The position numbers were made by a program, and so were the translations under genes. Under the pieces are notes generated by a model. It did not search any database, had not been told where the DNA came from, and saw only the letters and a program-made list of their open reading frames with translations. Below, piece by piece: positions 23,387 through 32,839 of a DNA stretch of 64,000 nucleotides. Origin of the DNA: Clostridiaceae bacterium (GTDB lineage Bacteria; Bacillota; Clostridia; Oscillospirales; Acutalibacteraceae); contig JAEEHB010000035.1 of NCBI GenBank assembly GCA_016280595.1, forward strand, positions 1 to 64,000, written 5' to 3'. Each line of letters begins with the position of its first letter. Position 1 is the stretch's first letter.

Positions 23387-24559
23387 TTATTTGTGAAAAA
23401 TACTGTTTACCAGATCCTTGAACAGAACTCTCTGCTTTTTGAGTTCTTTTTCGGTGCTCTGTTCAACCTTCATGAAATCGTCTCCGAGTTTCTTGAAGTC
23501 CTGCTTTATGGTTTCCTCCATAGTGCTTTCAAGGTTTTTCCTTATGGTTTCGAGCATCCTTGTGCTTCTCGGATTCTGCTTGAGCCAGGCTACCGTATCC
23601 CTGAGTGACTGCTCCGTTGTCATCGGTTTGTAATCAAGTTCTGCCGCCGCCTTCTCGTATGAGAAATTGCAGTTTTCGCAGAGCTTGTTGATTGAAAATT
23701 CGGTGATGACGGGCGGAAGTTTCGCCGCTCTGAAGAGTTTGTCGATTACCGGACACATTTTAAGCAGGAAGCCTTTATGCAGCGCGATTTTCGGCGGCTC
23801 CTTGCCTTCGATTTTCGCGAGCGTTGCTATAAAGTCCCTAACGGACATTCTGTCGCCGCACAGGAAATAGCACTCTCCGCCTCTGCCTTTTTCAGCGGCG
23901 GCTATCATTCCCTTTGCCACATCTCTCACGTCAACGAAGTTGTATCCGCCGAAGTTCAAGGTGCAGGGGAAAAGTCCGCTCAGGTAAAGCTGAATCATGG
24001 AGCAGACGCTGTTTGTGCCGTAGATGTCATCGGGGCCTATGCAGCAGCTCGGCTGAACAACGCAGATTTTAAGGCTTTCGTCGCTTTGCTCAATGCAGTA
24101 CTGCGTGGCGGCCGCCTTCGATTTGCCGTAAGCGTCGGGCAGACGGTTGGGGTTTAAGGTTGAGTATTCCTTTATCGGTGCGTTCCCTCTTGACGGGGGA
24201 ATGCAGTCAACCGATGAAACATATACAAGGTTTTTCACTCCGCATTTCTTGCACGCGGCAATCACGTTTTTGGTGCCGCCGTAGTTTACCGACCACACAA
24301 GGCGGTCTCTGGTGCCTTCAATATCCACAAGGCCTGCCACGTGATAAACCGTGTCGGCTCCTTCAAACGCTTTTTCAAGGCTGCTGTAATCGCAGATGTC
24401 GCCCATCACTTTCTCACAGCCGAAGCGGTCGAGTTCTTTACTGTCGTGTCTTAAAAGTACGCGTATTTTTCCGGGCCTTCCTGCAAGTTCGCTTACAAGA
24501 GCATAGCCTACATAGCCTCTTGCGCCGGTCACAACAGATAAACTTTCTTTATTATCCAT
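23387..24559 (-). CDS. NAD-dependent epimerase/dehydratase (extended SDR) with C-terminal coiled coil
   Basis: A 390-residue extended short-chain dehydrogenase. The Rossmann motif is VVTGARGYVGYAL and the catalytic Tyr-x3-Lys is in DAYGKSKAA. DTVYHVAG and VVQPSCCIGPDD are typical of 3-beta-HSD/dihydroflavonol reductase-like members. After about residue 335 comes a charged helix of some 50 residues (RKNLESTMEETIKQ ... VEQSTEKELKKQ) predicted to be a coiled coil, not part of the SDR core. I chose ATG 24559, four bases after GGGAGGT; it has its own consensus promoter. The substrate is unknown. Confidence 0.85.
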   Translation of the reverse strand: MDNKESLSVVTGARGYVGYALVSELAGRPGKIRVLLRHDSKELDRFGCEKVMGDICDYSSLEKAFEGADTVYHVAGLVDIEGTRDRLVWSVNYGGTKNVIAACKKCGVKNLVYVSSVDCIPPSRGNAPIKEYSTLNPNRLPDAYGKSKAAATQYCIEQSDESLKICVVQPSCCIGPDDIYGTNSVCSMIQLYLSGLFPCTLNFGGYNFVDVRDVAKGMIAAAEKGRGGECYFLCGDRMSVRDFIATLAKIEGKEPPKIALHKGFLLKMCPVIDKLFRAAKLPPVITEFSINKLCENCNFSYEKAAAELDYKPMTTEQSLRDTVAWLKQNPRSTRMLETIRKNLESTMEETIKQDFKKLGDDFMKVEQSTEKELKKQRVLFKDLVNSIFHK

Positions 24560-24586
24560 AATAACCTCCCGTATTGGTTTTTCCGT

Positions 24587-24615
24587 ATTATACACTTTTT
24601 CCCACATTTAGTCAA
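24587..24615 (-). promoter_or_regulatory. Promoter of the SDR gene
   Basis: - strand TTGACT (24615-24610), 17-bp spacer, TATAAT (24592-24587). Confidence 0.85.
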
Positions 24616-24701
24616 ATGCCCAAAAAATTCCCGCCGTTTTCCGCCGTTAATCCGCCTCTTCTACTATGCAGAAAATAACCGGATTTCAATATTGAGCAAA
24701 A

Positions 24702-24757
24702 ATGAATATTATGCACATATAATGTATAAAATACGGAAATATCGCATAAAAATACAG
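24702..24757. promoter_or_regulatory. Possible ARG-box-like sites upstream of argF
   Basis: AATGAATATTATGCA (24702-24716), then GTATAAAATAC and GCATAAAAATACAG, are A/T-rich imperfect palindromes loosely like the ArgR consensus TGAAT-W4-ATTCA. Each deviates at several positions, so this is a weak candidate supported mainly by its place before argF. Confidence 0.25.
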
Positions 24758-24774
24758 AAAACTCAAAAAATATG

Positions 24775-24803
24775 TTGACAAATATACAGAATTATTTTAT
24801 AAT
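24775..24803 (+). promoter_or_regulatory. Consensus promoter of the argF-carA-carB/dapF operon
   Basis: TTGACA (24775-24780), 17-bp spacer, TATAAT (24798-24803): a perfect match. Transcription from about 24810 leaves only some 25 bases of leader, so repression rather than attenuation would be expected. Confidence 0.92.
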
Positions 24804-24834
24804 AGTAAAAATTTGCAATCGAGGTGAAAAAGCA

Positions 24835-25824
24835 TTGATTTCGCTTAAAGGAAGAGACTTTTTAAAACTGCTTGATTTTACTCCCGAGGAGATTAATTAT
24901 CTGCTCGATCTTGCTTCGGATCTGAAATATAAAAAGAAAAACGGTGTTGTTCACCGCTATTGCGAGGGCAAAAATGTTGCCCTTATTTTTGAGAAAACCA
25001 GCACCCGCACCAGGTGCTCTTTTGAGGTTGCCGCGGCTGATCTCGGTATGCACCCCGTGTATCTTGACCCCAAGAGTTCGCAGATAGGCAAAAAGGAAAG
25101 CATTGCCGACACCGCCAGAGTTCTCGGTAGAATGTTTGACGGCATAGAATACAGAGGCTACGGCCAGGAGATAGTTGAGGAACTTGCCCGCTATTCCGAT
25201 GTGCCCGTATGGAACGGACTTACAAACGAGTTCCATCCCACTCAGATTCTTGCCGATTTTCTCACCATCAGAGAGCACATCGATTCGCTCAAAGGCATTA
25301 AAATGGTTTATATGGGTGACGCCCGCTACAATATGGGCAATTCCCTTATGGTCGGCTGCGCGAAAATGGGTATGCACTTCGTTGCCTGCGCACCGAAAGA
25401 ATACTTCCCCGATGACGCTCTTGTAAACACCTGCCGCGAAGTTGCCGCTCAGACGGGCGCGACCATCGAATTTGAAGAGGATCCGTCAAAGGCGGTGCAG
25501 GGCGCCGATGTAATCTATACCGATGTATGGGTTTCAATGGGCGAGCCCGAAGAAGTGTGGAAAGAGAGAATTGAAGCGCTCCTTCCTTATCAGGTCAATT
25601 CCGCGCTTATGGCGAAGGCAAAGCCGGACTGTAAGTTTATGCACTGCCTGCCCGCTTTCCACGACCTCAAGACCGAAATCGGCAAAGACGTTTACGAGAA
25701 GTACGCTCTGAGCGGTCTCGAAGTCACCGACGAAGTATTTGAGAGCCCCGCTTCAATCGTCTTTGACGAAGCGGAAAACAGAATGCACACAATCAAGGCC
25801 GTTATGGCTGCTACTCTTATATGA
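24835..25824 (+). CDS. argF: Ornithine carbamoyltransferase
   Basis: A 329-residue enzyme making citrulline from ornithine and carbamoyl phosphate in arginine synthesis. The carbamoyl phosphate site STRTR is at 56-60. [10 protein letters not shown] and the ornithine-site HCLPAFHD are present, and DVWVSMGE marks it as OTCase rather than aspartate carbamoyltransferase. I chose TTG 24835, eight bases after GAGGTG. An upstream ATG at 24772 falls inside the promoter and cannot be the start. It heads an operon with carA and carB, which points to a carbamoyl phosphate supply dedicated to arginine. Confidence 0.95.
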
Positions 25825-25842
25825 TGATGAAAGGATGAAAGT

Positions 25843-26898
25843 ATGAAAAAAGCCTATCTTGTTTTAAGCAACGGTATGATTTTTGAAGGCGAGGCCATCG
25901 GAGCCGAAGGCGAAGCGGCGGGCGAAGTCGTTTTCAACACCTCGGTTGTCGGCTACCTCGAAACTCTTACCGACCCGTGCTACGCGGGGCAGATTATCGT
26001 TCAGACATTTCCCGCTATGGGAAACTACGGTGTGATTGAAGAGGATTTCGTAGGCAAATGCGCCCTGAGAGGCTATGTTGTCAGAGAAATCTGCGACACT
26101 CCGTCAAACTTCCGCAGTCAGTATACTCTTGACAGATTTTTAAAAGAGCACAATGTGCCCGGCATCTGCGGAGTTGACACACGTGAAATCACCAGGATTA
26201 TCCGCGAAAACGGCGTTATGAACGGTATCATCTGCACAGCCCTACCCACAGACCTTTCATCAATCGCAGGTATCGAAACGGGCGGTCAGGTTGCGGCACT
26301 GAGCATAAAGGAAAAAGAGTTTTTCCCCGCGCAGGGTGAAAAGAAATATAACGTGACTCTTATCGATTACAGCGCGAAGGACGCTCTCATCGGCGCGCTC
26401 ACATCAAGAGGCTGTGACGTTACCGCCGTGCCTTACAACACCCCCGCTTCCGAAATCCTCGCCGCAAATCCCGACGGCGTTGTGCTTTCGGACGGACCGG
26501 GTGACCCCGCCGAAAACACAGACTGCATCAAAGAAGTCGCGGAGCTTATCGGCAAAGTGCCCGTGCTCGGCATTTCTCTCGGGCATCAGATCGCCGCGCT
26601 CGCACTCGGCGGCAAAACCGAAAAACTCACTTACGGCCACAGGGGCGGCAATCAGCCGGTTAAAGATGTGTTCGGCACAAGAACTTTCATCACCGGGCAG
26701 AATCACGGTTACGCCGTGCTTGCCGACAGCCTCAAGGGTATAGGCGATGAAACATTTGTAAACGCCAACGACGGCACAAATGAAGGCATGAGTTACCCCG
26801 ATAAAGACTGCGTTACAGTGCAGTTTGCACCCGGCGGAGATACCGCTTTCATTTATGATAACTTTATTTCGATGATGGGAGGAAAAGACAATGCCTAA
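25843..26898 (+). CDS. carA: Carbamoyl phosphate synthase small subunit with degenerate glutaminase site
   Basis: A 351-residue CarA. The N-terminal domain is normal (LSNGMIFEGEAIGAEG, VVGYLETLTDP, GICGVDTREITR). The class I glutamine amidotransferase domain is present but lacks its catalytic triad. The nucleophile Cys is Ser245 (LGISLGHQ; codon TCT), and the usual HPEASPGPHD segment with catalytic His and Glu is replaced by QFAPGGD (327-333). Loss of the Cys is what makes mammalian CPS I ammonia-dependent. So this subunit probably cannot release ammonia from glutamine and may serve only as a structural partner. It overlaps carB by 8 bases and lies 18 bases after argF. Confidence 0.9.
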   Translation: MKKAYLVLSNGMIFEGEAIGAEGEAAGEVVFNTSVVGYLETLTDPCYAGQIIVQTFPAMGNYGVIEEDFVGKCALRGYVVREICDTPSNFRSQYTLDRFLKEHNVPGICGVDTREITRIIRENGVMNGIICTALPTDLSSIAGIETGGQVAALSIKEKEFFPAQGEKKYNVTLIDYSAKDALIGALTSRGCDVTAVPYNTPASEILAANPDGVVLSDGPGDPAENTDCIKEVAELIGKVPVLGISLGHQIAALALGGKTEKLTYGHRGGNQPVKDVFGTRTFITGQNHGYAVLADSLKGIGDETFVNANDGTNEGMSYPDKDCVTVQFAPGGDTAFIYDNFISMMGGKDNA

Positions 26899-29800
26899 AG
26901 ATTCTGCTATAAGAAAAGTGCTTGTTATCGGCTCGGGTCCCATCGTTATCGGCCAGGCCGCGGAGTTTGACTACGCCGGCGCTCAGGCGTGCCGCGTGCT
27001 CAGAGCGGAAGGTATCAACACCGTGCTCGTTAACTCCAACCCCGCCACCATTATGACAGACAAAAATCTTGCGGACGAAATCTACCTTGAAGCCCTCAAC
27101 GCGGAGACAGTCGCAAGGATAATCGAAAAAGAGCGCCCCGACAGCCTGCTTGCAGGTCTCGGCGGTCAGACAGGCCTTACTATTGCGATGCAGCTCACAG
27201 CCAACGGCACTCTCAAGAAATACGGCGTGCGTCTGCTCGGCTCGGATATCAACGCCATCAACAAGGCGGAAGACAGAGAGATGTTCAGGGATACGATGAA
27301 GAGCATCAATCAGCCCTGCGTACCCTCCGACATCGCCGAAGATATTGACACCGCGCTCAAAATCGCCGGTGAAATCGGCTACCCCGTAATTGTAAGACCC
27401 GCTTTCACTCTCGGCGGCACGGGCGGCGGTATTGCCGATAACGCCGAGGAACTTGCAATCATCGCAAAGACGGGTCTTGACCTTTCACCCATCACCCAGA
27501 TACTTGTTGAAAAATGTATCTCCGGCTGGAAGGAAATAGAATTTGAAACCATGAGAGACGCAAACGGCAACGCAATCGCCATCTGCTCTATGGAAAATGT
27601 TGACCCCGTAGGCATTCACACGGGCGATTCAATAGTTGTCGCTCCCGCGCTTACTCTTTCAAATGTTGAGTATCAGATGCTCCGCACGGCTGCTCTCGAT
27701 ATAGTTACCGCGCTCGGTATAGTCGGCGGCTGCAACTGCCAGTTTGCTCTGAATCCCGACAGTTTCGAGTACGCCGTTATCGAAGTTAACCCCAGAGTTT
27801 CGCGTTCCTCCGCTCTCGCTTCCAAGGCAACGGGTTACCCGATTGCAAAGATGACCACCAAACTCGCGCTCGGCTATACGCTCGATGAAATCAAAAACGA
27901 TATCACCGGCGTCACCTGCGCCTGCTTCGAACCCTCGGTTGACTATATCGTTTGCAAATTCCCCAAGTGGCCCTTCGATAAATTCGCGGGTTCAAGCCGT
28001 AAACTCGGCACGCAGATGAAGGCAACCGGCGAGGTTATGTCCATAGGTCAGAATTTCGAATCCGCCCTGCTCAAAGCAATCAGAGGCGCCGAGATTTCAT
28101 TTGACACTCTCAACGCTCCTCCGCTCACCGACGAGCCCGTAAGGGTGCGTCTCGCCAAGCAGGATGACAGAAGAATGTTCACCGTTTTCGAGGCTATCAA
28201 GAGCGGTGTTTCGATAGACGAGATTTTTGAAATCACCAAGATTGACCGCTGGTTCCTTTACAGAATAAAGAACCTTGCCGACTTTGAGGAAATTCTCAAA
28301 AAGGGCGAGATGACCGAAGAACTCTATATGAAGGCGAAGAAACTCGGCTACACGGATGATGCTATCAAGAGGCTCTCCGGAGTAAAAGAGATTCCCTCGC
28401 TCGATTTCAGTTACAAGATGGTTGATACCTGCGCCGCGGAGTTTGACGCGCGTACTCCCTACTTCTACTCCTGCTGCGATAAAGCCTGTGAATCCCGCAC
28501 TTTCAAGAGAAGCGGCAAGCCCGTTATTATGGTGCTCGGCTCGGGCCCCATCCGCATAGGTCAGGGTATAGAATTCGACTACAGTTCCGTTCACTGCGTG
28601 TGGACTTTGAGAGATCTCGGCTATGACGTTGTTATAGTAAACAACAACCCCGAAACCGTTTCCACCGACTATGATACTGCCGACAGACTCTATTTCGAGC
28701 CGCTTACTCCCGAGGATGTTATGAACATCATCAAGGTCGAAAAGCCCATCGGCGTTGTTGTGGCATTCGGCGGTCAGACGGCTATCAAACTTACCTCATT
28801 CCTCGATAAGGCGGGCATCCGTATACTCGGCACATCCGCCGACGGCATCGACCTCGCGGAAGACAGAAGCAGATTTGACGCCCTGCTTGAAACCTTCGGT
28901 ATTTCAAGACCCAAAGGTATGGGCGTAAACACCCTTGAGGAAGCAATCGAAGCGGCGGACAAACTCGGATATCCCGTGCTTCTCAGACCTTCCTATGTTA
29001 TCGGCGGTCAGAATATGACCATATCGCATACCAAAGAGCACACCATAGCCTATATGGAGAAAATCCTCTCCGGCGGCATCGAGAATCCCGTGCTTATAGA
29101 TAAATATATGCCCGGTATCGAACTTGAGGTTGACGTCATTTCCGACGGCAAGGATGTTCTCATCCCCGGCATTATGGAGCATATCGAAAGAGCGGGCGTT
29201 CACAGCGGTGACTCAATCGCCGTCTATCCGCCCTACAATCTCAATGACAAGTTCCTCAAGAAGGTTTGCGACTGCTCCGAGAAACTCGCCCTCGCGCTCG
29301 GCACAAAGGGCCTTGTTAACATTCAGTACCTCATCTATAATGACGAACTCTATGTTATAGAAGTTAACCCCAGAGCATCGCGTACCATCCCCTATATCAG
29401 CAAAGTTACAAATGTGCCTATGGTTGACCTCGCGTCAAGAGTAATGCTCGGCGAAGAACTTGCCGAAATGGGATTCGGCACAGGGCTTTACTGCACGCCG
29501 CCTTACACGGCTGTCAAAGTGCCCGTATTCTCATTTGAAAAACTCAACGACGCAAACTCAATTCTCGGCCCCGAGATGAAGTCAACGGGCGAAGTGCTCG
29601 GCCTCGGCAAAACTCCCGCTGAAGCGCTCTTCAAAGGCCTTGCCGCGGCAGGCTTCAAGGTGCCCTCGAAGAACGAATCGGCAGGCGTGCTCATCAGCGT
29701 TGATCAGCACGATTTTGAAGAGGTGCTTTCCCTCGCGAAGCGCTTTGCAGACCAGGATATAGACCTCTATGCAACCACCGAAACCGCCGAAGCAATCGCG

Positions 29801-30883
29801 TCGCTCGGCATCAATGTGGTGAGCGTGCCCGTGAGCAGCGGCAATAAAGAAATAATCAGCCTTATGGAAAGCGGCAAGGTGAATTACATCATCTACACCG
29901 GCGCTGTCAATGATTCCACCGTGCAGGAGTATAACGGCATTCACCTGAGAGCAATGCAGCTTAGCATTCCCTGTCTCACTTCGCTTGACACCGCAAACGC
30001 CCTCGCCGAAATAATCGAGAGCGGCTTCACAGGCAAGAATACCGAGCTTGTCGATATCAACGATATGCGTACAAGACGCCTCGAGATACCCTTTGCCAAG
30101 ATGCATTCCTGCGGCAACGACTATATCTTCGTTGAGAATTTCGACGGCAAGATTACCTGCCCCGAATCCCTGTGCGTGAGCCTGTGCAGACAGCATTACG
30201 GAATCGGCGGCGACGGCATAGTCCTTATTGAAAAATCAACTGTTGCCGATGCCAAAATGCGCCACTTCAACCGCGACGGCTCCGAAGGCAAAATGGCGGG
30301 CAACAACATCCGCTGCGTGGGCAAATACCTTTATGACAAAGGCTTCCACAGAAACGAATATATAAGCATTGAAACCGCCAGCGGCGTTTACAAACTCAGG
30401 CTCTTTGTCCGTGACGGCAAAGTAACATCCGCGAGGGTTGATATGGGCAAAGCGCTTATCACCGAAACGGACAAGAAGGTAACCGTTGACGGCAAGGAAT
30501 ACACCGGCACCTGCGTAAATGTAGGCAACCCCCACTATGTCACCTTTGTTGACGGCATCGACGGGCTCGACCTTGAAAAAATCGGTCCCGAGTTTGAAAC
30601 CAACAAGGCTTTCCCGCACAGAATCAACACGGAATTCGTAAGAGTAATCAACAAGACGAATATCCGTATGAGAGTATGGGAGAGAGGCAACGGCGAAACT
30701 CTTGCCTGCGGCACGGGTGCGTGCGCGAGCGTAGCGGCGGCGTGTGAAAAAGGTCTTTGCGAAAAGGGCAAGGATATTACCGTGAAACTTGCCGGCGGGG
30801 ATGTGACGGTGAATTATACCGACGAAAGAATCACACTCACAGGGTCGGCAGTGATGGCCTTCGAAGGCAAGTTTGAGTACTGA
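26891..30883 (+). CDS. carB: Carbamoyl phosphate synthase large subunit fused to diaminopimelate epimerase-like domain
   Basis: A 1330-residue fusion. Residues 1-1058 are CarB: two ATP-grasp halves, each opening with GSGPI(V/R)IGQ..EFDY (about 15-29 and 550-564), and a methylglyoxal-synthase-like allosteric domain (about 930-1058). Without a linker, residues 1059-1330 form a DapF domain (FAKMHSCGNDYIF, YGIGGDGIVLI, CVNVGNPHYV, ETLACGTGACAS). The second catalytic cysteine is Cys1273. The first one is Ala1136 (KMAGNNIRC in place of MCGNG). An internal ATG at codon 1059 has no ribosome site, so a fused product is expected. DapF activity is uncertain; CarB looks intact. The gene ends directly at repeat copy D. 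Confidence 0.92.
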   Translation: MPKDSAIRKVLVIGSGPIVIGQAAEFDYAGAQACRVLRAEGINTVLVNSNPATIMTDKNLADEIYLEALNAETVARIIEKERPDSLLAGLGGQTGLTIAMQLTANGTLKKYGVRLLGSDINAINKAEDREMFRDTMKSINQPCVPSDIAEDIDTALKIAGEIGYPVIVRPAFTLGGTGGGIADNAEELAIIAKTGLDLSPITQILVEKCISGWKEIEFETMRDANGNAIAICSMENVDPVGIHTGDSIVVAPALTLSNVEYQMLRTAALDIVTALGIVGGCNCQFALNPDSFEYAVIEVNPRVSRSSALASKATGYPIAKMTTKLALGYTLDEIKNDITGVTCACFEPSVDYIVCKFPKWPFDKFAGSSRKLGTQMKATGEVMSIGQNFESALLKAIRGAEISFDTLNAPPLTDEPVRVRLAKQDDRRMFTVFEAIKSGVSIDEIFEITKIDRWFLYRIKNLADFEEILKKGEMTEELYMKAKKLGYTDDAIKRLSGVKEIPSLDFSYKMVDTCAAEFDARTPYFYSCCDKACESRTFKRSGKPVIMVLGSGPIRIGQGIEFDYSSVHCVWTLRDLGYDVVIVNNNPETVSTDYDTADRLYFEPLTPEDVMNIIKVEKPIGVVVAFGGQTAIKLTSFLDKAGIRILGTSADGIDLAEDRSRFDALLETFGISRPKGMGVNTLEEAIEAADKLGYPVLLRPSYVIGGQNMTISHTKEHTIAYMEKILSGGIENPVLIDKYMPGIELEVDVISDGKDVLIPGIMEHIERAGVHSGDSIAVYPPYNLNDKFLKKVCDCSEKLALALGTKGLVNIQYLIYNDELYVIEVNPRASRTIPYISKVTNVPMVDLASRVMLGEELAEMGFGTGLYCTPPYTAVKVPVFSFEKLNDANSILGPEMKSTGEVLGLGKTPAEALFKGLAAAGFKVPSKNESAGVLISVDQHDFEEVLSLAKRFADQDIDLYATTETAEAIASLGINVVSVPVSSGNKEIISLMESGKVNYIIYTGAVNDSTVQEYNGIHLRAMQLSIPCLTSLDTANALAEIIESGFTGKNTELVDINDMRTRRLEIPFAKMHSCGNDYIFVENFDGKITCPESLCVSLCRQHYGIGGDGIVLIEKSTVADAKMRHFNRDGSEGKMAGNNIRCVGKYLYDKGFHRNEYISIETASGVYKLRLFVRDGKVTSARVDMGKALITETDKKVTVDGKEYTGTCVNVGNPHYVTFVDGIDGLDLEKIGPEFETNKAFPHRINTEFVRVINKTNIRMRVWERGNGETLACGTGACASVAAACEKGLCEKGKDITVKLAGGDVTVNYTDERITLTGSAVMAFEGKFEY

Positions 30884-31122
30884 TCGCTCGGCGAATATAC
30901 GGCGAAAAACGAAAAGACAAATGTTTTACGGACTGCGGGTTTATAACTCGCAGTTCTTTTTTGTGTGCAATTTGATTTGCTATAAGGAATGTTTGATTAT
31001 TGTCTTTTCTCGGAGCCTTTATTCGCTCGCCGTACCTTAGTACTGTCTTCGCTCATAAATGCGTTGTTTTCATCCTTTTCTGTTTCCTCCCTCAGTGCCT
31101 CTGAATTAGTTCCATCAAAAAT
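30884..31122 (+). repeat. 3'-end dispersed repeat, copy D
   Basis: Begins at the base after the carB/dapF stop. Arm GGCGAATATACGGCGAAAAAC-GAAAAGACAA, hairpin, CTATAAGGAATGTT, TTGTCTTTTCTCGGAGCC, TTTATTCGCTCGCCGTACC, ACTGTCTTCGCTCATAAATG, TTTTCATCC, TTCCTCCCT, ending CCATCAAAAA. It is nearly identical to copy E over the TTCGCTCGCCGTA to TTTTCATC block. The two outer arms are partly complementary, so the whole unit could fold around the terminator hairpin. Confidence 0.8.
30930..30962 (+). terminator. Terminator in repeat copy D (after carB/dapF)
   Basis: Stem GGACTGCGGGTT/AACTCGCAGTTC (12 pairs, two of them G-T), loop TAT, then six T residues at 30957-30962. A strong intrinsic terminator 47 bases after the stop codon. 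Confidence 0.85.
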
Positions 31123-31143
31123 ATGTTTTGCTTGTAATGCCTA

Positions 31144-31254
31144 CCCGTAGGGGCGGATATCATCCGCCCGCCACAAGGATATGCGTGAGCATAATACAAT
31201 CGGCGCTTTGTGCCCCTCAATTCTGCATTCTTAATTCTGAATTCTGCATTCTGA
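31144..31254. repeat. GGGCGGATATCATCCGCCC palindrome and ATTCTGCATTCT repeats
   Basis: CCCGTAGGGGCGGATATCATCCGCCCG (31144-31170) is a strong hairpin, followed by AGGATATGCGTGAGCAT. The same combination recurs at 54280-54329, again behind a copy of the 3'-end repeat. At 31218-31254 imperfect copies of AATTCTGCATTCT alternate with AATTCTGA. Together with repeat D and the promoter at 31289 this accounts for the 468-bp gap; no gene is seen in it. Confidence 0.7.
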
Positions 31255-31288
31255 TTGCGCAATATATTGATAAAATACATAAAAATAC

Positions 31289-31316
31289 TTGAAAACAGTG
31301 CAATATGTGGTATAAT
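31289..31316 (+). promoter_or_regulatory. Promoter of the DUF1846 gene
   Basis: TTGAAA (31289-31294), 16-bp spacer, extended -10 TGGTATAAT with TATAAT at 31311-31316. Confidence 0.75.
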
Positions 31317-31351
31317 TATTTTTGGATTTTTTTGAGAGGCGGGTTTGTGAA

Positions 31352-32839
31352 ATGAAGAAAATCGGCTTTAATAACGAGATGTATCTCACAAGGCAGTCGG
31401 AGATGATTAACAAGCGAATCGGCGAGTTCGGCGGCAAGCTTTATCTTGAGCTCGGCGGTAAACTTTTTGACGACCTCCACGCTTCAAGGGTGCTGCCTGG
31501 TTTCGCTCCGGACAGTAAACTTCAGATGCTCAAGAAACTTTCCGAAGAACTTGAGGTTGTCATCGTCATCAATGCCGGAGATATTGAAAACAATAAAATG
31601 CGCAGAGACCTCGGCATCACCTATGACGCCGACGTGCTCAGGCTTATTGACGCTTACTCGGGCGCGGGCCTGTATGTAGGCAGCGTTGTTATCGCTCAGT
31701 ACAGAGACCAGCCCACCGTTGCCGCCTTCAAATCCAAACTCCAGGCTCTCGGAGTAAAAGTTTTCATCCATTATCCGATTGAGGGCTATCCCTATAATCT
31801 TTCCCGCATCGTGAGCGATGAGGGCTTCGGCAAAAACGAATATATCGAAACCGAAAGGCCGCTTGTGGTTGTCACCGCGCCGGGCCCCGGCAGCGGCAAA
31901 ATGGCTACCTGCCTTTCACAGCTTTACCACGAAAACAAGAGAGGCATCCAGGCGGGCTACGCAAAGTTTGAAACCTTCCCCATCTGGAATCTGCCCCTTA
32001 AGCATCCCGTAAACCTCGCCTATGAAGCGGCGACCGCCGACCTCAACGATGTCAATATGATTGACCCTTATCACCTTGAGGCCTACGGCGAGACCACCGT
32101 CAACTACAACAGAGACGTTGAAGCCTTCCCGGTGCTCAACGCGATTTTCGAAAAAATCAGAGGTCAGTCGCCCTACAAATCACCCACCGATATGGGCGTA
32201 AATATGGCGGGCTACTGCATATGCGACGACGAAGTCTGCAAGCAGGCGTCAAAGGACGAAATCATCCGCCGCCTCTTTGCCGCAATGTGCGATGTGAAAC
32301 TCGGCAGGGGCACTCAGGAAGCGGTTGAAAAGATAATCAGCCTTATGAATCAGGCGGGCATCACCGTTGATGACAGAAAAGTTATCGCCGCCGCTCTTCA
32401 AAGGAGTGAAGAGACCGAAGGTCAGCCCGCTGTTGCGATAGAACTGCCCGACGGCAAGATTGTCACGGGCAAAACTTCCAAACTTCTCGGCGCATCCTCA
32501 GCCGCGCTTCTCAACTCGGTAAAGGCGCTCGCCGGTCTGCCCGAAGACTTGCTCACCATCGCCCCCTCTATCATCGAGCCGATTCAGCAGCTCAAAACGG
32601 GTGTGCTTAAAAACCACAATCCGCGTCTGCATCTTGACGAAACTCTGATTGCTCTCTCAATGAGCGCAAATACAAACCCGGTCGCAAAGAAGGCGCTTGA
32701 AGCCGTAGGCGGTCTCGCAGGCTGCGAGGCGCACTCCACGGTCATCCTTTCGCAGGTTGACCAGGATGTTTTCCGCAAACTCGGCATCAACCTCACCTGT
32801 GAGCCAGTTTATCAGACCAAAAAGTTATATCACAAATGA
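31352..32839 (+). CDS. DUF1846 domain-containing protein
   Basis: A 495-residue cytoplasmic protein of the DUF1846 family, recognised by the opening MKKIGFNNEMYLTRQSE...LYLELGGKLFDDLHASRVLPGF and by APGPGSGKMATCLSQLYH, a P-loop-like stretch at about 180-195. The family fold has a nucleotide-binding-like domain, but its reaction is not established. I chose ATG 31352; the frame is open upstream to 31322 in promoter sequence. It overlaps the following glycosidase-like gene as ATGA. Length is as expected for the family. Confidence 0.88.
   Translation: MKKIGFNNEMYLTRQSEMINKRIGEFGGKLYLELGGKLFDDLHASRVLPGFAPDSKLQMLKKLSEELEVVIVINAGDIENNKMRRDLGITYDADVLRLIDAYSGAGLYVGSVVIAQYRDQPTVAAFKSKLQALGVKVFIHYPIEGYPYNLSRIVSDEGFGKNEYIETERPLVVVTAPGPGSGKMATCLSQLYHENKRGIQAGYAKFETFPIWNLPLKHPVNLAYEAATADLNDVNMIDPYHLEAYGETTVNYNRDVEAFPVLNAIFEKIRGQSPYKSPTDMGVNMAGYCICDDEVCKQASKDEIIRRLFAAMCDVKLGRGTQEAVEKIISLMNQAGITVDDRKVIAAALQRSEETEGQPAVAIELPDGKIVTGKTSKLLGASSAALLNSVKALAGLPEDLLTIAPSIIEPIQQLKTGVLKNHNPRLHLDETLIALSMSANTNPVAKKALEAVGGLAGCEAHSTVILSQVDQDVFRKLGINLTCEPVYQTKKLYHK

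Follow-up and report, generated by a model that had tools for sequence, protein, structure and literature searches.

A carB-dapF fusion gene and its spread

The 64,000-nucleotide stretch of contig JAEEHB010000035.1 from a Clostridiaceae bacterium that was analysed here (the window) carries a gene in which CarB, the large subunit of carbamoyl phosphate synthase (CPS), runs in frame into a domain with the fold of the diaminopimelate (DAP) epimerase DapF. A single in-frame fusion had been proposed by a sequence-only reading of this DNA, and it was borne out by the uninterrupted frame and the two family models that match it. The gene and its parts are as follows.

26891..30883, + strand: carB::dapF fusion gene, a stop-free open frame of 1330 amino acids; TIGR01369 and TIGR00652 each match above cut-off
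26891..30064, + strand: CarB part, residues 1-1058, with two ATP-grasp halves and a C-terminal MGS domain (Pfam/NCBIfam)
30044..30085, + strand: junction, the CarB tail TELVDINDMR and leading within a few residues into the DapF fold, placed by comparing the conserved tail of relatives with the ends of unfused CarBs
30083..30880, + strand: DapF-fold domain, predicted to be non-epimerising; TIGR00652 at 260 bits, top Foldseek match 2otn
30296..30298, + strand: Ala1136 at the first catalytic Cys, equivalent to Cys73 of H. influenzae and Cys83 of C. glutamicum DapF
30707..30709, + strand: Cys1273, the second catalytic Cys, kept (alignment)

The CarB half is full length, as TIGR01369 matched residues 2-1041 with 1388 bits against a cut-off of 1027 (NCBIfam). 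The Pfam family CPSase_L_D2 matched it twice, and other fused genes encode CarBs that are 78% to 62% identical to it. TIGR00652 matched residues 1067-1328 far above its cut-off of 114.65 bits, and Pfam concurred. A structure model, which spans residues 930-1330 only and from which we claim no domain arrangement, gave a confident DapF fold (mean predicted local distance difference test (pLDDT) 87, predicted template modelling score (pTM) 0.65) with a poorly defined linker, and the model was least confident at the junction (its residues 122-125). The closest Foldseek match, 2otn, is the DapF of B. anthracis (E-value 1.8e-35, 40% identity), and the superfamily dehydratases 6r76 and 4k7g were also among the fold matches. 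Among the 25 of 42 NCBIfam matches listed for the window protein, none was a fusion-specific model. When the DNA was inspected by eye, no Shine-Dalgarno-like stretch was seen before the ATG of codon 1059, in agreement with the earlier statement that an internal start there has no ribosome site. The gene would yield one polypeptide of about 145 kDa.

We found the same architecture in many other genomes. Of 150 genomes sampled from this family, at least 43 had a frame of 1200 amino acids or more that matched DapF. At the class level, where the count was restricted to DapF matches at E <= 1e-75, a match in a frame of 1300 amino acids or more was found in at least 49 of 391 genomes from 25 family codes, and 84 fused rows group in a single clade of the CarB tree. 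The search for further CarB-DapF architectures and their phylogeny, which the sequence-only reading had proposed as a check, identified a recurrent gene. The named carriers belong to Oscillospiraceae, Ruminococcus and Clostridia; most are metagenome assemblies, and one, Ruminococcus sp. FC2018 (L085), is an isolate. A contig filed under Treponema (L080) carries a fusion that has lost the first catalytic Cys and groups with those of Oscillospiraceae; it is either a mis-binned contig or a case of transfer.

Because the fusion recurs across the sampled genomes, a missed stop or an assembly error is excluded, and the fusion is real; a chance or mis-assembled frame was ruled out by the recurrence in both the family and class samples. 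The window genome is a 65-contig draft that is 78% complete, which leaves some room for an artefact of sequencing or assembly that joined two genes, or for one frame giving two proteins. However, such an explanation is extremely improbable in view of the counts above, the isolate and the internal ribosome site that was not seen. The sequence-only reading had also known of no established functional link between the two enzymes. That view leaves out of account that carAB, dapF, pyrG and dapL are often clustered in this same bacterial group and that the fusion is widespread.

Loss of the first catalytic cysteine

In the window domain the DapF motif MCGN is changed to MAGN, while the residues expected to bind DAP are present: Asn1127, Asn1138, Asn1213, Asn1246, Glu1264, Arg1265 and Thr1275 with the preceding Gly. 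According to excerpts of PMC5296763, the DAP-binding residues of C. glutamicum DapF are Asn74, Asn85, Asn159, Asn194, Glu212, Arg213, Gly222 and Thr223, and its C83A variant has almost no activity. Excerpts of PMC4227774 likewise describe E. coli DapF with C73A/C217A as inactive. The window domain has the fold and profile of a DapF and only one of the two catalytic cysteines. The earlier description of a full-length DapF domain stands as far as the fold is concerned, but as an enzyme the domain is incomplete at Ala1136, and a canonical, standalone dapF stands beside dapL elsewhere in the genome. A simple bifunctional CPS/DAP epimerase in this genome was ruled out on these two grounds, and from the alignment we infer that the DapF half should not be an epimerase.

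To follow this site across relatives, 167 DapF rows were reduced to 141 before tree building by dropping two short L052 pieces and 26 identical domains. The first catalytic Cys was present in 42 and absent in 46 of 88 distinct fused domains, and present in 53 of 53 standalone DapFs. Three rows at contig edges (L018, L072 and L078) had first been scored as standalone; L072 and L078 contain CarB sequence, and L018, which starts inside the linker, was called fused on that ground and on its tree position, without which the standalone count would read 53/54. The replacing residue was Ala in 29 rows, Gly in 11, Ser in 2, Tyr in 1 and Phe in 1 (first table, n=44). Changes in the state of the Cys numbered 10 on the DapF tree, built with the Cys column masked, and 11 on the CarB tree, of which the starred branches alone force 2 and 8, respectively. 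Both trees are quick searches, and duplicate entries of one gene were removed before the CarB tree and the counts.

Gene neighbourhood and meso-DAP supply

The standalone DapF of the window genome carries the MCGN motif and is encoded on contig C36, directly before dapL. We compared 49 genomes with a scorable fusion, 24 with the Cys kept and 25 with the Cys lost; G113 was excluded, as its fused DapF was read over just 63 to 68 residues. Of the 24 Cys-kept genomes, 17 had dapL no more than 8 kb from the fused gene, whereas none of the 25 Cys-lost ones did; in these, dapL was elsewhere in 15 (14 of them with an adjoining standalone dapF) and not found in 10. Among genomes that have dapL, the difference in proximity gave a Fisher p of 4e-6, uncorrected for relatedness. 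Similarly, where a named locus had 2.5 kb or more of downstream sequence, the fusion was followed by pyrG and/or dapL in 13 of 15 Cys-kept versus 0 of 15 Cys-lost cases. The reverse pattern was seen for ornithine carbamoyltransferase, which preceded the fusion at 7/16 Cys-lost versus 0/11 Cys-kept named loci with at least 3 kb upstream; in all, it stood beside 15 Cys-lost fusions and no Cys-kept one.

An alternative enzyme for meso-DAP, either a standalone DapF or Ddh/Ddh-like, was found in 23 of 25 Cys-lost versus 13 of 24 Cys-kept genomes (Fisher p 0.004). The Ddh-like matches in this count include four short, split ones and a fragment (G138) located at the edge of a contig. Among genomes at least 90% complete, the figures were 19/20 and 13/21 (p 0.02). 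Eleven Cys-kept genomes have dapL with no standalone DapF or Ddh found, so the fused domain is the only candidate epimerase there. Taken together, in many relatives that keep the first Cys the fused domain is still the best candidate for the cell's epimerase, while in the window lineage meso-DAP would come from a separate DapF, or in relatives from Ddh, and the catalytic Cys was replaced by Ala.

The probable argF-carA-carB::dapF operon

The fused gene is the third of a probable operon, with these further features.

24772..25824, + strand: argF, ornithine carbamoyltransferase; TIGR00658 at 455 bits, matching from residue 28 onwards; HCLPA motif; the listed ATG probably lies upstream of the true start
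24775..24803, + strand: sigma-70-like promoter before argF with 12/12 consensus matches; a consensus match only, of a kind found 15 times versus 6.9 expected
25843..26898, + strand: carA, its glutaminase triad lost; TIGR01368 at 357 bits; overlaps carB by 8 bases
29678..30041, + strand: MGS (allosteric) domain of the YTG type; Pfam MGS at 945-1030, with alignment A2 and alignment to E. coli CPS
30930..30956, + strand: terminator-like hairpin 47 bases past the carB::dapF stop; a pattern match only, of a kind found 11 times versus 8.6 expected

Since a promoter-like site lies upstream and a terminator-like hairpin downstream, argF, carA and carB::dapF are probably carried on one transcript, and the window protein would be the large subunit of a CPS that supplies carbamoyl phosphate to ornithine carbamoyltransferase. 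An Rfam search of 24300-31300 gave no match at the gathering threshold. The next gene downstream (31322-32839) matches PRK13663 (NF010184, 811 bits), a conserved protein whose only name is 'hypothetical protein'.

The CarA of this operon has Ser (26575), Ala (26827) and Gly (26833) in place of the Cys-His-Glu triad of a glutamine-dependent CPS. Because the triad is replaced, the window CPS probably uses free ammonia. Of the CarAs encoded next to Cys-lost fusions, 10 of 31 had changed triad residues, compared with 1 of 21 next to Cys-kept fusions (with three and one unread at the Cys) and 5 of 38 next to unfused CarBs. The changed CarAs are those of the window and of L040, L044, L049, L077, L084, L088, L122, L184, L189 and L085, together with the unfused L174, L175, L200, L204 and L217. 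We rejected a strict link between loss of the Cys in DapF and loss of the triad in CarA, as only 10 of 31 show both and five unfused cases show the latter. In these gut Clostridia, CPS appears to have become ammonia-dependent on several occasions.

Two further observations concern CarA. The genome G145, a congener of the window genome that is 97% complete, has one CarB, which is fused, and no CarA match; in G145 (L182) and in its close relative L073, carB::dapF directly follows the ornithine carbamoyltransferase gene with no carA, which suggests that G145 has a CPS without a glutaminase subunit. The window genome itself has a second CPS (contig C15, L058), an unfused CarA-CarB pair whose CarA triad is intact. 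This pair lies in a nitrogen-assimilation cluster that, with names assigned by eye, contains an asparagine synthase-like gene, two glutamine synthetase-like genes (glnA), a gdhA-like gene and guaA.

The MGS domain was also changed. Thirteen of the 30 rows of A2, those of the main Cys-lost clade, have a sequence of the YTG.. type where Cys-kept relatives have the stretch STSSKGR..RDSVKIRRK, while five sporadic Cys-lost rows in A2 keep STS. In E. coli the STSSKGR region participates in the binding of uridine or inosine monophosphate (UMP/IMP). The presumably inactive epimerase may have become an amino-acid sensor on CPS, with a pocket that would bind DAP or a similar amino acid (lysine, ornithine or arginine, for example) and set the activity of CPS, supplanting the nucleotide-sensing MGS domain, which lost its STSSKGR-type stretch in this same clade; we regard this specific role as possible, although on balance doubtful.

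Origin of the fusion

The 84 fused rows of the CarB tree received an SH-aLRT support of 100. The Met of codon 1059 falls within the tail that is conserved among relatives (TELVDINxMR), and many relatives have K-M-K-L-K-F-T-K-M a few residues past that Met, which resembles an old dapF start. When CarB ends were compared, the unfused sisters L174 and L175 ended in ELIDITQI and ELLDITKI, and the fused proteins in TELVDINNMR followed by KMKLKFTKM. We suggest that carB and dapF likely fused as neighbouring genes, probably by loss of the stop codon between them, at a time when DapF would have been a working epimerase. Unfused carA-carB-dapF-dapL clusters do exist (L125, L127, L133, L171, L172 and L207), and their CarBs belong to a different subfamily from the fused CarBs on the CarB tree.

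Two fused rows, L043 and L054 (G032 and G055), lie outside the 84-row clade and have a different, longer junction; they probably represent a second, independent fusion event. G032 also carries one of the unfused clusters (L172). On the DapF tree the standalone row L116 falls inside the fused part, and L053 falls among standalone rows on weak forks. A separate fusion for L053 was rejected, as it has the main-type junction and a main-clade CarB.

A retained domain that probably no longer epimerises

The explanation that we favour, with somewhat better than even probability, is an ancestral fusion of CPS with an epimerase which, in the window, has become the large subunit of an argF-linked CPS whose DapF half is a non-epimerising regulatory or structural domain. 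Under this explanation the Cys-lost domain would be kept as a tethered module that, with its DAP-type pocket intact, stabilises CPS or tunes it allosterically; a role of either kind is inferred from the pattern of conservation. No unfused CarB was found inside the 84-row fused clade among the 45 sampled, so the sample shows many losses of the Cys but none of the domain. Among the Cys-lost rows (n=44), the pocket residues were kept in 40 to 44 and the second catalytic Cys in 43. The ratio of nonsynonymous to synonymous divergence (dN/dS) of the DapF half in pairs with finite dS was 0.05-0.25 for Cys-lost versus 0.03-0.16 for Cys-kept pairs. The median ratio of dN in DapF to dN in CarB, for which only half of CarB was available at some loci, was 1.74 in 11 Cys-lost pairs versus 1.67 in 14 Cys-kept pairs. 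The Cys-lost domain therefore has the marks of a pseudoenzyme, namely a lost catalytic residue in a domain under purifying selection, together with an overall loosening; from these comparisons it is constrained, though less than a working DapF.

Several observations weigh against this explanation. The genome G047 (L170), which is 99% complete, has a Cys-lost fusion and dapL without an adjacent dapF, and no standalone DapF or Ddh was found in it, a gap that, with a dead fused domain, would be lethal or cause auxotrophy. A comparison of phylogenetically independent pairs was not significant (4 pairs, on average 0.8 in the same direction and 0 in the opposite one; low power), nor was the presence of a standalone DapF taken alone (14/25 Cys-lost versus 7/24 Cys-kept genomes, p 0.08). 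In the pocket, 11 of 44 Cys-lost rows have Asp instead of Asn at the N11 site. Most dS values were near or beyond saturation, and two of the finite dN/dS values were 0.195 and 0.245. Out of 276 alignment columns, those conserved at 95% or more numbered 55 in the main Cys-lost clade, 91 in Cys-kept and 70 in standalone domains, and 15 of 65 columns strict in both of the latter were loosened in the former. Finally, no dapF was present in the approximately 2 kb read downstream of the nearest unfused sisters, L174 and L175, and the unfused clusters belong to the other subfamily, so a direct precursor operon was not seen.

G047 would also fit a fused domain that still epimerises DAP despite Ala1136, by means of another base or water. 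We consider this very unlikely, since in the excerpts cited above the C83A enzyme of C. glutamicum was almost inactive and the C73A/C217A enzyme of E. coli inactive, since the Cys is present in 53 of 53 standalone rows, and since the window genome has its canonical dapF beside dapL.

The loosened columns of the main Cys-lost clade, which is less conserved than the other groups, would fit a functionless, decaying remnant kept because C-terminal deletions are rare or because it helps folding. Degraded members would fit it too: in L051 the second Cys and other motif residues are changed, and in L052 the frame is interrupted. We nevertheless find such decay unlikely, because dN/dS is 0.05-0.25 where measurable, the DapF/CarB dN ratio is as in catalytic relatives, the pocket is kept, and, although the Cys was lost about 11 times, the 84-row clade contains none of the 45 unfused CarBs.

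The kept second Cys (43/44) and carboxylate- and amine-binding residues are likewise what would be expected of a new enzyme, one that uses a single Cys for an elimination or half-reaction on a DAP-like amino acid and perhaps feeds ammonia or an intermediate to CPS. The dehydratases among the fold matches point the same way, as do conversions described in excerpts of PMC8142540, where replacing Cys by Thr converts a hydroxyproline epimerase to a dehydratase, and glutamate racemases with a Cys-to-Ser change carry out elimination. Those conversions, however, require Thr or Ser, or unnatural substrates. In the fused domains the replacing residue varies and is mostly Ala or Gly, neither of which provides an acid/base, and no neighbouring gene suggests a substrate, so that we hold a new enzyme to be quite unlikely and return to a non-epimerising domain on CPS as the favoured explanation.

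Significance and comparison with known systems

Both halves of the protein belong to known families; what is new to us is the fusion, its spread and the repeated catalytic loss. No paper describing a CarB-DapF fusion was found among the matches listed in a search of the open-access literature, and UniProt presumably names such proteins automatically as multifunctional fusions. The fusion has been caught at several stages, from unfused clusters, through fused and probably catalytic proteins, to fused proteins in which the Cys was lost about ten times, and the series offers a natural experiment on the conversion of an enzymatic into a regulatory domain. If the sensor role holds, CPS, a textbook allosteric enzyme, would gain an unsuspected input from cell-wall or lysine metabolism, and the Cys-kept protein would couple the supply of pyrimidines (uridine triphosphate for uridine diphosphate (UDP) sugars) with that of meso-DAP, both of them precursors of UDP-MurNAc-peptide. 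There is also a risk for annotation, as TIGR00652 scores a dead domain well above its cut-off and genomes may wrongly be credited with a second DAP epimerase.

Compared with the CarB of the TIGR01369 family (E. coli 1bxr, 1jdb and 1ce8), the window CarB is likewise full length and stands in the same carA-carB order, but it has DapF after the MGS domain, its stretch at the MGS nucleotide site is replaced, and its partner CarA lacks the triad. In this last respect it resembles vertebrate CPS I, whose structures 5dot and 6uel were among the matches. Vertebrate CPS I depends on ammonia, and its glutaminase Cys is replaced by Ser. The glutaminase nucleophile of the window CarA is likewise Ser and not Cys; unlike CPS I, however, the window enzyme is bacterial with a separate CarA subunit, and it is only predicted to depend on ammonia. 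With the DapFs of TIGR00652 (2otn, 9mro and 5m47) the window domain shares the fold, the pocket residues and the second catalytic Cys, whereas its first Cys is Ala, it is tethered to CarB, and the genome has another DapF. A functional parallel is the complex of E. coli DapF with RppH (6d13). As described in the excerpted parts of PMC4227774, DapF binds and stimulates RppH and does not need its catalytic cysteines to do so, which indicates that a DapF fold is able to act on a partner enzyme independently of epimerase catalysis. In that complex an untethered, active epimerase is paired with an RNA hydrolase; in the window protein, the DapF fold would act as a covalent domain of CPS.

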